From: Tepidamorphaceae bacterium
GTDB lineage: Bacteria; Pseudomonadota; Alphaproteobacteria; Rhizobiales; JAKSCL01
Length of the DNA stretch: 64,000 nt
Direction of reading: 5' to 3'
Assembly (NCBI GenBank): GCA_028289445.1
Contig: JANQPO010000003.1
Location: forward strand, 43,882-107,881
Shown: positions 17,765 through 33,900 of the stretch, piece by piece
Numbering within the stretch: position 1 is the stretch's first letter
How the letters are laid out: the number at the start of each line of letters is the position of its first letter
Program-made: the position numbers and the translations under genes
Notes under the pieces: generated by a model
What the model was told of the DNA's origin: nothing
Database searches by the model: none
What the model saw: only the letters and a program-made list of their open reading frames with translations

Positions 17765-18034
17765 TCAGTGCCGTCGATGTTTGCCGACAGCGCCGGCGAG
17801 CCTGGCCGTGGGATCGTCCCAATAAGGCGCTGCTTGGGCTCGACGCACGTCCTCATAGGTCAGCCCGATATCGGCCAACATGCGATCGTCCAGGTGCACA
17901 AGCTGCGTCACGGCGCGCCGATTCGCGAGGCGACGATAGACCGACTTCACCATCGCCACGATTTGGCTGGTGAAACTTACCCGTGCGCGTCCCATGGAGG
18001 CGCCCGGGGCGTAGGAAACATGACTATAGGCCAT
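17765..18034 (-). CDS. DUF1127 small basic protein, cassette copy 1
   Basis: The 89-residue protein ends in a DUF1127 domain: LVHLDDRMLADIGLTYEDVRRA (about residues 45-66), the arginine-rich helix pair seen in small alphaproteobacterial regulators of RNA turnover and metabolism. The start has a strong Shine-Dalgarno (AGGAGGACC, then ATG). The gene is divergent from a LysR regulator, and the whole arrangement is repeated 1.4 kb further on. The 5' leader holds a 7-bp hairpin at 18097-18119. The biochemical role of DUF1127 proteins is known only in part; some bind RNA. Confidence 0.9.
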   Translation of the reverse strand: MAYSHVSYAPGASMGRARVSFTSQIVAMVKSVYRRLANRRAVTQLVHLDDRMLADIGLTYEDVRRAQAAPYWDDPTARLAGAVGKHRRH

Positions 18035-19151: not shown

Positions 19152-19457
19152 TTAGATATGACGACGGACCCCGCGCAGGGATCGGGTCATCGCCGCCTGG
19201 CGCGCCTTTCCCAAGGATACGGCAGCGCGCGACCGGTCGAGCGAATCGAGCGCTCCGTAGATATCGGCACGGGTCAGGCCCATGTCCTCAAGCTGCCAAT
19301 CCTCCAGCGCCAGGTACACATTGATCTGGTTGCGCTGCCGGCGGCGCTCGGCGGCTGCAGCCCAAAGGTCGGCGATGGCGTCGAACGCGGCCGTGAGCCA
19401 CTGGCCAATGGCTGGACGCCCAACGGTGATAGGTGTGACATCGGAATAGTGCGTCAT
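19152..19457 (-). CDS. DUF1127 small protein, cassette copy 2
   Basis: The frame is open upstream, but the ATG at 19457 has a strong Shine-Dalgarno (GGAGGACAAACC before the ATG) nearly identical to that of copy 1, giving 101 residues. The C-terminal half holds the DUF1127 pattern VYLALEDWQLEDMGLTRADI (about 53-72), followed by a basic tail ending RRHI. It is more diverged from copy 1 than the two LysR genes are from each other, but it has the same orientation, ribosome site and divergent partner. Confidence 0.85.
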   Translation of the reverse strand: MTHYSDVTPITVGRPAIGQWLTAAFDAIADLWAAAAERRRQRNQINVYLALEDWQLEDMGLTRADIYGALDSLDRSRAAVSLGKARQAAMTRSLRGVRRHI

Positions 19458-29531: not shown

Positions 29532-29628
29532 CACAGAACCTAGGTTTCGCGTATGACGGGACTGTGAGTTGATCGAAGGGCGGTTTCGCTCTACCCCGAC
29601 GGAAAACCCATATCGTCGAGGAGGAGCG

Positions 29629-30591
29629 ATGCTGATCCGATCACGGCGCGGCTGGGAAATTCCCGAGGCGCAGATCACCCCTGAACATGTATTCTTGAAC
29701 CGGCGTGCCTTCATGACGGGCAGCGCCGGTCTTCTTGCTGCCGCGGCCATGCCCGCCGGCCTTAGATCGGCTTTCGCGGAGGCCGATCCAAGCGCCGATC
29801 TCTATCCAGCGGCGGTCAACGACATGTACGAAGGTGGCCGCCCGCTGACGCCTGAGGCCATCAGCTCGACCTATAACAACTTCTACGAATTCGGGTCCCA
29901 CAAGCGTATCGCCAAGGCGGCTCAAAAGCTGAAAATCCGTCCCTGGACGGTGACGTTCGATGGTCTGGTCGAAGAAGAGCGCACCGTCGACGTTGACACG
30001 CTGTTGCGGGCGATGCCGCTGGAAGAGCGGATTTACCGGCATCGCTGCGTCGAGGCGTGGGCGATGACCGTCCCGTGGACCGGCTTCCCGTTGAAAGCGA
30101 TGGTCGACTACGCCAAACCGCTGTCGGACGCGAAATATGTGCGGTTCGAGACCTTCCTCGATCGAAAGATGGCAAGCGGCCAGAAACAGGGCTGGTATCC
30201 CTGGCCCTATGTCGAGGGCCTGACCATGGCCGAGGCGACGAACGAGCTGACACTGATGGTCACGGGCGCTTACGGCAAGCCGCTGGCGAAGCAGTTCGGC
30301 GCGCCGCTGCGTCTCCATACGCCGTGGAAATATGGCTTCAAGTCGATCAAATCGATTGTCCGCATCTCCTTCGTCGCTGAACGGCCGGTCGGCTTCTGGG
30401 AAGAGGTTCAGGGTCGCGAGTACGGCTTCTGGGCGAACGTCAATCCGGAAGTGTCTCATCCGCGCTGGAGCCAGGCCACGGAGGAGCTGATCGGGACCGG
30501 CGAACGCGTTCCCACGGTCATCTACAACGGTTATGGCGAATTCGTCGCCGATCTCTACAAGGACATGGACGGCGAACGTCTGTTCATGTGA
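29629..30591 (+). CDS. msrP: periplasmic protein-methionine-sulfoxide reductase, catalytic subunit
   Basis: MsrP (YedY) is a molybdopterin enzyme that repairs oxidised methionine in periplasmic proteins. The start at ATG 29629 follows GGAGGAGCG and gives 320 residues. A twin-arginine signal (NRRAFMTGS, Arg25-Arg26, with a hydrophobic stretch to about residue 50) directs Tat export. The Mo-coordinating cysteine is Cys140 in RHRCVEAWAMTVPWTGFP, and the C-terminal block LHTPWKYGFKSIKSIV is typical. The usual membrane heme partner msrQ is not adjacent. Confidence 0.95.
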   Translation: MLIRSRRGWEIPEAQITPEHVFLNRRAFMTGSAGLLAAAAMPAGLRSAFAEADPSADLYPAAVNDMYEGGRPLTPEAISSTYNNFYEFGSHKRIAKAAQKLKIRPWTVTFDGLVEEERTVDVDTLLRAMPLEERIYRHRCVEAWAMTVPWTGFPLKAMVDYAKPLSDAKYVRFETFLDRKMASGQKQGWYPWPYVEGLTMAEATNELTLMVTGAYGKPLAKQFGAPLRLHTPWKYGFKSIKSIVRISFVAERPVGFWEEVQGREYGFWANVNPEVSHPRWSQATEELIGTGERVPTVIYNGYGEFVADLYKDMDGERLFM

Positions 30592-30596
30592 TCCTA

Positions 30597-30644
30597 GAGC
30601 ACGGTCCCGAAAAGCGTGTGCGGTTTTGGGACAAGACCATGCTC
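30597..30644. repeat. dispersed palindromic repeat, copy 1
   Basis: Outer arms GAGCACGGTC and GACCATGCTC pair with one mismatch and enclose an inner pair CCCGAAAA / TTTTGGG. The core resembles that of the repeat at 53179-53203 (CCGAAAA / TTTTCGG). Elements of this type are frequent between genes in Hyphomicrobiales genomes. It begins 6 bp after the msrP stop and could act as an mRNA 3' end. Confidence 0.6.
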
Positions 30645-30736
30645 AAAATCAAAGAGGGTGCGCATCTTCGGCGACTCGACTTTCACTGAATATGCTCTAG
30701 CGCGCGTTCGCCGCGAAAAATCGGATAGAACCAAAG

Positions 30737-30885
30737 AAAAACCGGGCTTCACTTGCGTGAAGCCCGGCTAAAGGTTCAGTGTTCGCGGTCAAGAGACCGA
30801 AACACCTTCCAGAGGGGAACAGCGGTCACCAAGCGGATCAGTGGCCCGAGGGAGGAGAGGGCGCTGACCCAGATGACCGGTCACC
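30737..30885 (-). ncRNA. predicted AbcR-like trans-acting small RNA
   Basis: On the minus strand a sigma70-type promoter (TTGCGG, 16 bp, TATATC) predicts a start near 30885, and an intrinsic terminator ends near 30737, giving about 150 nt with no convincing reading frame. Predicted structure: a short stem GCCC/GGGC (30844-30862) exposing the CU-rich loop UCUCCUCCCUC, able to pair with Shine-Dalgarno sequences; a 5-bp hairpin at 30786-30799; then the terminator. It lies directly downstream of an lsrB/vtlR-type gene. In Brucella, VtlR activates the sRNA AbcR2, which from memory is encoded next to vtlR. The AbcR assignment is inference; no homology search was run. Confidence 0.55.
30742..30767 (-). 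terminator. intrinsic terminator of the predicted sRNA
   Basis: A perfect 11-bp stem (CCGGGCTTCAC / GTGAAGCCCGG) with loop TTGC is followed on the minus strand by TTTTTC. There is no T-tract on the plus strand, so it acts for minus-strand transcripts. It is 224 bp below the lsrB stop, too far to be a simple lsrB terminator. Confidence 0.85.
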
Positions 30886-30891
30886 TGTTGA

Positions 30892-30919
30892 GATATAAAT
30901 CGCGAATGCTGCGCCGCAA
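30892..30919 (-). promoter_or_regulatory. sigma70-type promoter of the predicted sRNA
   Basis: On the minus strand TTGCGG (30919-30914) and TATATC (30897-30892) are separated by 16 bp. This predicts transcription from about 30885 away from lsrB toward the terminator at 30767-30742. The -35 match is partial, as expected for an activator-dependent promoter. Confidence 0.5.
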
Positions 30920-30937
30920 CCGGGACATTCGTATAGC

Positions 30938-30960
30938 AGCCATGCATCAAATGCATGGCT
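30938..30960. promoter_or_regulatory. palindromic LysR binding site (T-N11-A), probable LsrB/VtlR operator
   Basis: Two perfect 10-bp arms (AGCCATGCAT and ATGCATGGCT) flank CAA. The inner part is TGCATCAAATGCA, an exact T-N11-A LysR box (T30943, A30955). Its centre (30949) is about 64 bp upstream of the predicted sRNA start, where LysR activators normally bind. It lies 31 bp beyond the lsrB stop. Confidence 0.65.
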
Positions 30961-30990: not shown

Positions 30991-31890
30991 TCAGTACGAC
31001 CACTCGCGCGCCTTGGCGACGAGGAAATCGCGGAAAACATTGATCCTTGCCGATGTTCTCAACTCTTCCGGATAGACGAAGTAAGTGTCGAAACACGGTA
31101 AATCGTCCGCTTCGATTCCAAGGCGGATCAGGTTGCCCGATGTTCCGATAATGTAATCCGGCAGAATCGCGATGCCTTCGCCGCTCTGCACAGCCTGCTT
31201 CAGCCCGTAAACGCTGTTGATACGCAAGGCCACTCTTGGATGCGGCCCGCCGTCCTGTCCTTGACGTTCGAGCCAGTTCATTTCGCGGAAATAGGCTGGT
31301 GCCGGCTCGCCGTAAAGAAGGACCTTATGGTTGATGAGATCGGCCGCTGTGTTCGGCGTTCCCCACCGGCGCAGATAGTCGCCCGACGCATAAAGGTGAA
31401 AGTGGACAGTGAACAATTTGCGCTGGACAAGATCCGGCTGGACCGGCCGGCGCAGCCGGATCGCGACATCCGCCTCGCGCATGCCGAGATCAAGTTCGGA
31501 ATCGCTCAAGATGAGGTGCAGTTCCACGTCTGGATATAGCTCGATGAACTCCCGCAAGCGCGGGGTCAACCAATTGGCACCGAGGCCGACCGTCGTCGTG
31601 ACCCGCAACTCGCCGGACGGTTTGTCCTTGGAGTCCATCAGTTTGGTGCGGACAGTCTCCAACCGGTCCACCACGTCCTGTGAGGCACGGAAAAGGAGGT
31701 CGCCTTGCTCGGTCAAGACCAGGCCGCGCGCATGGCGATGAAAGAGCGGAACGTTGAGTTCCTGCTCCAGCGCGGACACCTGGCGGCTGACGGCTGACTG
31801 CGACAGGCCGAGCGCCTCTCCGGCATGCGTGAAGCTACCGGCCTCCGCAGCGGCGTTGAAGATACGCAGTTTGTCCCAGTCAAGCGGCAC
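30991..31890 (-). CDS. lsrB: LysR family regulator of the LsrB/VtlR group
   Basis: The 299-residue regulator begins MPLDWDKLRIFNAAAEAGSF, with the helix-turn-helix LSQSAVSRQVSALEQELN, a start highly typical of LsrB (Sinorhizobium) and VtlR (Brucella, Agrobacterium). The effector domain runs from about residue 92. In S. meliloti lsrB also neighbours trxB and controls redox and surface-polysaccharide functions; in Brucella VtlR activates sRNA and small-protein genes. Here it begins 18 bp after the trxB stop and is probably in its operon. The symbol is given from recalled similarity plus synteny. Confidence 0.87.
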   Translation of the reverse strand: MPLDWDKLRIFNAAAEAGSFTHAGEALGLSQSAVSRQVSALEQELNVPLFHRHARGLVLTEQGDLLFRASQDVVDRLETVRTKLMDSKDKPSGELRVTTTVGLGANWLTPRLREFIELYPDVELHLILSDSELDLGMREADVAIRLRRPVQPDLVQRKLFTVHFHLYASGDYLRRWGTPNTAADLINHKVLLYGEPAPAYFREMNWLERQGQDGGPHPRVALRINSVYGLKQAVQSGEGIAILPDYIIGTSGNLIRLGIEADDLPCFDTYFVYPEELRTSARINVFRDFLVAKAREWSY

Positions 31891-31907: not shown

Positions 31908-32879
31908 CTATTCGGCAGCTTCGCGGGTGGCATCCTGTTCGGCGATGAACTTTTCAGCCTCAAGCGCGGCCATGCAGCCCATGCCGGCAGCCGTAACCGC
32001 CTGGCGGAAAATGTCGTCGGTAACGTCGCCGGCCGCATAGATACCTGGAATGCTGGTGGCGGTTGAGTCCGGCTTAGTGATGAGATAGCCGCCGGTCTTC
32101 ATCTCAAGCTTGCCCTCAAAGAGCGCAGTCGCCGGTTTGTGGCCGATGGCGATGAAGACGCCGTCGGCCTGCACTTCAACGATATCGCCCGTTTCGGTAT
32201 CGCGCAGACGCACGCCCGTGACACCCGGCGGATTGTCCGTGCCGACAACCTCGTCCAGCGTCTTGTTCCAGGCGACTTCGATCTTTGGATGAGCCAGAAG
32301 TCTGTGTTGCAGGATCTTCTCCGCTCTCAGAGCGTCGCGCCGATGGACGAGCGTCACCTTTGACGCGAAGTTCGTCAAAAACAGGGCTTCCTCGACAGCG
32401 GTATTGCCACCACCGATGACGACGACCTCCTTGTTGCGATAGAAGAACCCGTCACAGGTCGCGCAGGCGGACACACCGAAGCCCTTGAACTTTTCTTCCG
32501 ACGGCAGGCCCAGCCATTTCGCCTGGGCGCCTGTCGCGATGATCACTGTATCGGCCGTATAAACCGCGCCGCCATCGCCGGTCAGGCGGAAGGGACGGAC
32601 CGAAAAGTCCACGTCGACAATGTGGTCGGAGATCAGCTTCGTTCCCACATGTTCGGCCTGCGCCTTCATCTGTTCCATCAGCCAGGGGCCTTGGATGACA
32701 TCGGCAAAGCCTGGGTAGTTCTCGACATCGGTAGTGATCGTCAACTGTCCGCCGGGCTCTATTCCGGAGATGAGCACTGGCTCCAACATGGCGCGGGCTG
32801 CGTAGATCGCGGCCGTGTAACCGGCCGGGCCTGAGCCCACGATGATGACTTTCGCGTGCAGCGGCGGGGTGTCGGCCAT
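31908..32879 (-). CDS. trxB: thioredoxin-disulfide reductase
   Basis: TrxB uses NADPH and FAD to reduce thioredoxin. The ATG at 32879 gives 323 residues ([20 protein letters not shown]), the family length; a longer upstream frame has no similarity. The FAD motif [10 protein letters not shown] is at 15-24, the redox-active CATC at Cys139-Cys142 (followed by DGFF), the NADPH motif [10 protein letters not shown] near residue 160 and the C-terminal FAD block [11 protein letters not shown] near 285. It is followed by lsrB, the order seen in related genomes. Confidence 0.97.
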
Positions 32880-32898
32880 CGGTCGCTTTCCTTGGATG

Positions 32899-33900
32899 TT
32901 AGGGCGCCGGAGCGGTCGTCCGGTAGGCTTGAAAGCGCGCAAGGATTTCGCGCGCGATCTCCGGGGTGGAATTTAGGGGTTCATAGGTGCCGGTTTCAAG
33001 ATCGCCTGTGAATGAGTGAACGGCACCGTGCTCGGCAAGGGCCTGCAAAAAGGCGTACGCTTTGCGATTGGCGCCAAGCCGCCGGTCACTGGGCCGGAAA
33101 ATCATCACTGGCACACCCGTCGCGACCGCCTCACCGACCATGTTGACCGAATCGGCAGTCACCACGATTCCGTCGGCGTTGGCCAGCATCTGAACGTAGG
33201 GATTTTGGCCGGTCCCGTCCCATAGATAGCCGTCGTGGCGTGTGAAAACGGCTGCGATATCATCCTTCAGGCGCGGGTCGGACGCGTCCGTGCGCCGAGA
33301 AAAGGTTCCCATCAGGGACGTTGGAGACTGGGCGAGCCTTTCCAAGCGTTCCGAAAAGGTGCGGATGTCGCCACCGGTGAAATGGGAGCGCGCGCTATCG
33401 CCGCCCACAATAACGGCCACCCTTGGCTTGGAGAGGCGTTCGATCTCCGGCCAGGGCGAGGCGCGGGCTGCCGCCAGTTGTTCGGCCGACAGGGTGTGGG
33501 GCGATGTCGGCGTCGCCAGCACGTTGTCGCCACGCAGCCGATCGTGCTCCGGAACCCAGATGAAATCTGCTGTCTCGGGTCCCGTGCGCGGGTCTTTTAG
33601 AAAGACCGTAAAGGTCGTCGGGCTGAGTGCCTTGATCCGTCGGAGATAGGGGACGGCGCGACGCCCCGAGGCAATGACCAGATCGGGGAAGGGAGGCGCG
33701 ATGGGGCTTCCCGACCGGTCCTCCCGCTCGCGCGGATCGATCGGAATGCCTGGAAGCGGCCAATCGTAGAAGAATCCGGGGTGCACCGTCCGTTCATCCG
33801 GCTGAACGCCAAGCGCCTGTGCCACCCCTTGGCACTGCACCAAATCGCCGGCCTTCCCGTCGGTCAGGATCCACGCGCTTCTCGGCTCCAGCTCAGTCAT
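32899..33900 (-). CDS. ELM1 family protein (mitochondrial fission ELM1-like)
   Basis: The 333-residue protein starts [19 protein letters not shown], the hallmark N-terminus of the ELM1 family, and contains [18 protein letters not shown], a [15 protein letters not shown] block and a glycosyltransferase-like C-terminal half ([27 protein letters not shown] shape). In plants ELM1 recruits a dynamin to mitochondria; bacterial members have no established function but resemble GT-B glycosyltransferases. It ends 19 bp before the trxB start, so the two are probably co-transcribed. Confidence 0.85.

Follow-up and report, generated by a model that had tools for sequence, protein, structure and literature searches.

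A divergent, single-copy AbcR (alpha-r15) sRNA gene predicted downstream of lsrB, with an LsrB/VtlR box before its promoter

The window analysed here is a stretch of 64 kb (64,000 nucleotides) that contains the local gene order trxB - lsrB - abcR - msrP. The thioredoxin-disulfide reductase gene trxB (31908..32942, minus strand; TIGR01292 over cut-off), which is the usual gene upstream of lsrB, precedes lsrB/vtlR (30991..31890, minus strand). The latter encodes a LysR-type regulator with the Pfam domains HTH_1 and LysR_substrate, and LsrB orthologues are present in 279 of 297 genomes of the order. On the other side lies msrP (29569..30591, plus strand; NF003767 over cut-off), encoding a protein-methionine-sulfoxide reductase, the convergent neighbour of abcR and a gene that adjoins the sRNA in many relatives. 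To judge from its sequence, the minus strand at about 30885-30737 is a single-copy, divergent gene for a trans-acting sRNA of the AbcR (alpha-r15) type. We term it abcR (30737..30885, predicted transcript about 150 nt) and regard it as an ordinary, well-supported addition to the already known AbcR system. A first-pass annotation of this DNA had reported a palindrome, a promoter-like pair TTGCGG-16 bp-TATATC and a strong terminator on one strand, all of which are indeed present on the minus strand.

The 150-nt RNA predicted here has a folding energy of -74.9 kcal/mol (z = -6.7), a stability that none of 200 shuffled sequences reached. It forms the three hairpins of AbcR RNAs, of which the last is a rho-independent terminator. 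Hairpin 1 (SL1, 30818..30882, minus strand) and hairpin 2 (SL2, 30773..30810, minus strand) are supported by the fold and by covariation in relatives; the intrinsic terminator (SL3 plus T tail, 30734..30769, minus strand) is additionally found by a terminator scan and has a stem of 13 pairs (30769-30740) followed by a T-rich tail. The first-pass annotation was right about a CU-rich pairing loop: the first apical loop carries UCUCCUCCCUC (30858-30848) and with it the aSD1 motif CUCCUCCC (30850..30857, minus strand), an exact match to S. meliloti aSD1 (PMC8844928). It had missed a second site, aSD2 UUCCCCUC, between SL1 and SL2 (30812..30819, minus strand; PMC8844928, PMC5461406). Both motifs are published pairing sites of S. 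meliloti AbcR1/2 (PMC8844928), and aSD2 together with the G at 30820 contains GUUCCC (30820-30812), the M2 motif of Brucella AbcR (PMC5461406). In all 31 motif-bearing sRNAs tested, including that of the window, aSD1 is located in an apical loop, compared to about 10% after shuffling. Of the two motifs, aSD2 is the better conserved.

Some relatives depart from this architecture. The AbcR RNA of Ancylobacter, Xanthobacter, Azorhizobium and related genomes has only about 100 nt and a short SL1 without the CU-rich aSD1 loop (L054, L055, L061, L064-L067, L080, L083, L085, L089, L093-L095, L097, L102, L105, L109-L112 and L114); these short RNAs retain aSD2 and the LsrB box. In one family (f5) the variant core ACCGTTCCCCTCACCCCAGG replaces GCTGTTCCCCTCTGGAAGG and the aSD2 part lies in a large loop (L119:1069-1221 minus, L132:1062-1220 minus, and L134).

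Conservation was followed through the lsrB orthologues, which were used to fetch 80 loci from named genomes and 30 further loci; these yielded 113 core sequences downstream of lsrB. An alignment of 27 diverse members made with MAFFT was discarded, as its stems were misaligned and RNAalifold gave little beyond the terminator, and a narrower set of 15 relatives, with the window left out, took its place. In this set 84% of the alignment cells pair, compared to 29-40% with slid partners, 21 of 35 pairs show double changes, and the covariation score was reached by none of 500 shuffles. The covariance model built from the same 15 relatives (R1) matches the window at 30888-30733 with 51 bits (E 9.7e-10), and with it the sRNA is recovered downstream of lsrB, on the same strand, in 73 of the 80 named loci, 8 of the 73 having contributed to the model. 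Box, promoter and hairpins are all conserved downstream of lsrB in relatives.

The family assignment rests on homology over the full RNA, as R1 positions 1-140 match and the Rfam model ar15 (RF02345, AbcR family) aligns end to end (model 1-112 at 30865-30738) with 22.6 bits and an E-value of 0.016, a value obtained with permissive settings on 401 bases. The score stays under the RF02345 gathering cut-off of 40 bits, and Rfam with curated cut-offs gave no match across the 64-kb window, so that annotation pipelines would miss abcR. This cut-off is passed by only 20 of 297 genomes of the order, and among 12 AbcR loci scanned with ar15 only the Rhizobiaceae-type locus L005 passes it. Since clear lsrB-adjacent AbcR genes of other families also fail, the ar15 cut-off measures closeness to Rhizobiaceae and not membership; the model is too narrow, and AbcR genes are missed in most families of the order. 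Sequence divergence also hides the gene from BLAST: a plain DNA similarity search with the 281-bp region against 61 genomes recovered the core alone, in 3 others. In the 3.9-Mb source genome abcR is the only ar15 match, no further AbcR gene was found, a genome search with Rfam ar35 (RF02346) returned nothing, and the motif GCTGTTCCCCTCTGGAAG occurs once. The AbcR-type identity suggested in the first-pass annotation is thus borne out by the alignment to ar15 over its full length, the exact copies of the two pairing motifs, three covarying hairpins and a position next to lsrB that recurs across the order.

Upstream of abcR we predict an LsrB/VtlR operator of three half-sites (30930..30960, minus strand). 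A 17-mer promoter motif, learned from 74 deduplicated promoters of relatives with the window left out, has the consensus [TC]GCAT[AG]nC[TA]GnnnTGC[AG]. Its best match on both strands of the 64 kb is TGCATGGCTGCTATACG at 30946-30930 (16.8-17.3 bits); the next match (49828, 11.8 bits) apparently lies inside a coding region and was dismissed as chance. The 17-mer covers half-site 2 (TGCATGGC, 30946-30939) and a degenerate half-site 3 (30935-30930), which reads TATACG in place of ATGCA. In most of 68 deduplicated loci an upstream half-site AGC[CT]ATGC is kept 14 to 7 bp before the box, a position occupied in the window, in register with relatives, by half-site 1 (AGCCATGC, 30960-30953). The palindrome AGCCATGCAT-TTG-ATGCATGGCT (30938..30960, minus strand; 10-bp arms, centre 30949), which had been taken for the regulator's box, can accordingly be read as the upstream half-sites 1 and 2 of three conserved half-sites, while the predicted conserved site runs 8 bp beyond it toward the promoter, to 30930. 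Within the operator lies an exact copy, GCATGGCTGCTAT (30933..30945, minus strand), of the published VtlR/LsrB box GCAT-N3-TG-N3-T (PMC7486931). Its position at about -60 to -48 corresponds to that of the LsrB box in S. meliloti PabcR1 (-61 to -49; PMC8844928), in line with the earlier proposal that a LysR box here belongs to the adjacent lsrB/vtlR. A three-half-site operator also fits the tandem T-N11-A motifs noted in PabcR1 (PMC8844928). The putative -35 element TTGCGG (30914..30919, minus strand) follows 10 bp past the operator, as in L005, and is separated by a 16-bp spacer from the -10 element TATATC (30892..30897, minus strand). A generic promoter scan found no promoter, the pair being too weak for it.

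Three other readings of the locus have to be weighed. That the features arose by chance or belong to a protein-coding region, with no sRNA at all, could draw on a mechanically called 83-aa open reading frame that spans the region, and on the palindrome, which taken alone is only suggestive: perfect inverted repeats with arms of at least 10 and loops of up to 10 occur 9 times in the window and 0-7 times in eight Markov-1 shuffles, so that it stands near chance level for 64 kb. Because the palindrome is near chance and the promoter weak in a generic scan, it is conservation that settles the reality of abcR; RNA structure, promoter and motifs are conserved across families, with compensatory changes and variable length, and we consider this reading scarcely credible. 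Only slightly less improbable is a different CU-rich sRNA, e.g. NfeR1 or another of the anti-Shine-Dalgarno type, whose loops would resemble AbcR by convergence. Loops with CCUCCUCCC are known in other rhizobial sRNA families (PMC3927594) and the abcR score is under the ar15 cut-off, but the match is collinear and of full length, including GCUGUUCCCCUCUGGAAG, the neighbourhood and promoter box are as in true AbcR1, and the R1 model already places the window RNA with AbcR.

A real AbcR sRNA might, alternatively, be transcribed independently of LsrB, from a constitutive promoter or by another activator, the neighbourhood then being a relic. Members of the family outside LsrB/VtlR control do exist, namely S. 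meliloti AbcR2 and Brucella AbcR1 (PMC8844928, PMC5461406). Moreover, in the nearest relative compared, the only other genome of the same family in the set (G001), the sRNA gene (L175, G001:C224, 2093-1951 minus) does not lie beside lsrB: sRNA and box face msrP, while lsrB is on another contig (L174, G001:C57), where a different gene follows it. The linkage of lsrB and sRNA is therefore not universal, and the RNA gene stayed beside msrP once it was lost. However, this unlinked copy still keeps the box (13.2 bits), and nothing else in the window matches the conserved motif as well as the operator, which has the upstream half-site in register and the published distance to the promoter. We regard LsrB-independence as unlikely, if the least so of the three. 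The reading we prefer, and hold to be very probable, is a single-copy AbcR gene activated by LsrB, whose dual aSD sites block the translation of transporter mRNAs. Points that count against it are the ar15 score under the cut-off, the degenerate half-site 3 and the lost linkage in G001.

Gene, operator, promoter spacing, motifs, fold and conservation are established at the level of sequence, while it is from the orthologues that we infer transcription, the binding of LsrB and activation by it, a role of Hfq and the repression of targets. LsrB, encoded just upstream, would bind the operator at 30960-30930 and activate the sigma-70-type promoter of abcR, and the resulting 150-nt RNA would end at the intrinsic terminator. 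Its exposed aSD1 (CUCCUCCC, SL1 loop) and aSD2 (UUCCCCUC, between SL1 and SL2) could then occupy the ribosome-binding sites of transporter mRNAs by base pairing and so prevent their translation, presumably with the involvement of Hfq. By analogy abcR thus probably switches off the translation of nutrient-uptake genes, which would extend this AbcR function to lineages where databases miss the gene.

Candidate targets were sought with short seeds, since the nine-base complement of aSD2 gave only 2 sites before an ATG. Just before ATG, the aSD2 complement AGGGGAA occurs 44 times compared to 16 for the reversed pattern, and the aSD1 complement GGGAGGAG 17 times compared to 4, counts that are tempered by the fact that Shine-Dalgarno sequences are purine-rich anyway. 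Candidates at genuine gene starts include a LivK-like binding protein (L180), two SBP_bac_5 binding proteins (L187, L221), two DctQ subunits (L219, L224), a MalK-type ATPase (L215) and a DUF4212 protein (L213); for a DctP binding protein (L190) the site probably falls within the coding sequence. The LivK-like candidate is at G000:C3:33221, and genes for oligopeptide-binding proteins are at C3:448910 and C18:293897. Complementary sites before transporter genes fit the function of AbcR, but are suggestive only. An aSD2-complementary site (147852-147868) also lies just before the start of the gene for a CtrA-like two-component response regulator (L204:799-1503 minus; G000:C18), through which AbcR may possibly be linked to cell-cycle control.

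The known VtlR regulon was recovered independently in the same genome by boxes before DUF1127 genes. The main targets of VtlR in Brucella are AbcR2 and three DUF1127 proteins (PMC12595884), and one promoter bound by VtlR in Agrobacterium is that of atu1667, which is orthologous to two small proteins of the Brucella set (PMC7486931). The source genome has five DUF1127 matches, and the exact box consensus is found at 4 sites in its 3.9 Mb. Two of them are correctly oriented and some 100 bp upstream of DUF1127 genes (C5:72729 and C6:39084; PWM 16.6 and 16.9 bits), and the remaining two are apparently in coding regions. For a third DUF1127 gene (C18), a site of 12.6 bits lies 200 bp upstream of the domain. 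A loose box with two mismatches was uninformative (336 genome sites compared to 200 for the reversed pattern). Two DUF1127 matches are located in the window itself (17843-17935 and 19257-19367, minus strand), with no LsrB box nearby.

Thiol-redox sensing by LsrB of A. tumefaciens involves the cysteines C144, C236, C244 and C273 (PMC11975290). The window LsrB has a single cysteine, Cys266, and none in the Rhizobiaceae-type columns 142/234/242/272, so that it lacks equivalents of all four. Of 109 LsrB orthologues examined, 81 have no cysteine at all, although this set (L036-L145) is biased to the LsrBs closest to that of the window. Because of the one misplaced cysteine and the 81 cysteine-less orthologues, we doubt that redox sensing is the ancestral role of LsrB. 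An ancestral, order-wide circuit of LsrB, AbcR and DUF1127 proteins that works via the three-half-site operator, to which the thiol redox sensing of Sinorhizobium and Agrobacterium was added later, seems to us an evenly balanced proposition. If it holds, cysteine-less LsrBs must respond to something other than thiol redox. A simple prediction is that AbcR and the small DUF1127 proteins make up the conserved LsrB regulon and that cysteine redox chemistry has no part in it.

Among the characterized systems, LsrB-activated S. meliloti AbcR1 (alpha-r15, RF02345) resembles abcR in its location downstream of lsrB, the box position, aSD1/aSD2 and the three hairpins (PMC8844928). S. meliloti has a tandem AbcR1/AbcR2 pair, whereas one copy is present in the source genome; AbcR1 has 121 nt compared to 150 nt for the window RNA, with its longer and G+C-rich SL1, and is followed by an arsR-type gene in place of msrP. 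VtlR-activated Brucella AbcR2 likewise has its gene near vtlR, carries M2 GUUCCC and shares its regulator's box with DUF1127 genes (PMC5461406, PMC12595884). The motif CAATGCAGCCATGCA of Brucella reads TGCATGGCTGCATTG on the opposite strand and has 11 bases in common with TGCATGGCTGCTATACG of the window (PMC5461406, PMC12595884). M1 reads CUCCCA in Brucella but CUCCCU in the window, and Brucella has a second AbcR gene, whereas none was found in the source genome. Agrobacterium tumefaciens shares the order trxB-vtlR-abcR and the box GCAT-N3-TG-N3-T (PMC7486931), and differs in the redox cysteines of its LsrB (PMC11975290). Alignments of the relatives collected here offer a better annotation model for AbcR and a sharper LsrB operator.

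About 100 bp separate the terminator from msrP (30592-30700). With its ends AGAGCA.../...TGCTCT and the inverted repeat inside, this stretch resembles a rhizobial intergenic mosaic element. Allowing up to 3 mismatches, it occurs in one copy only in the window; a similar stretch comes after lsrB in G001 (L174:170-275).
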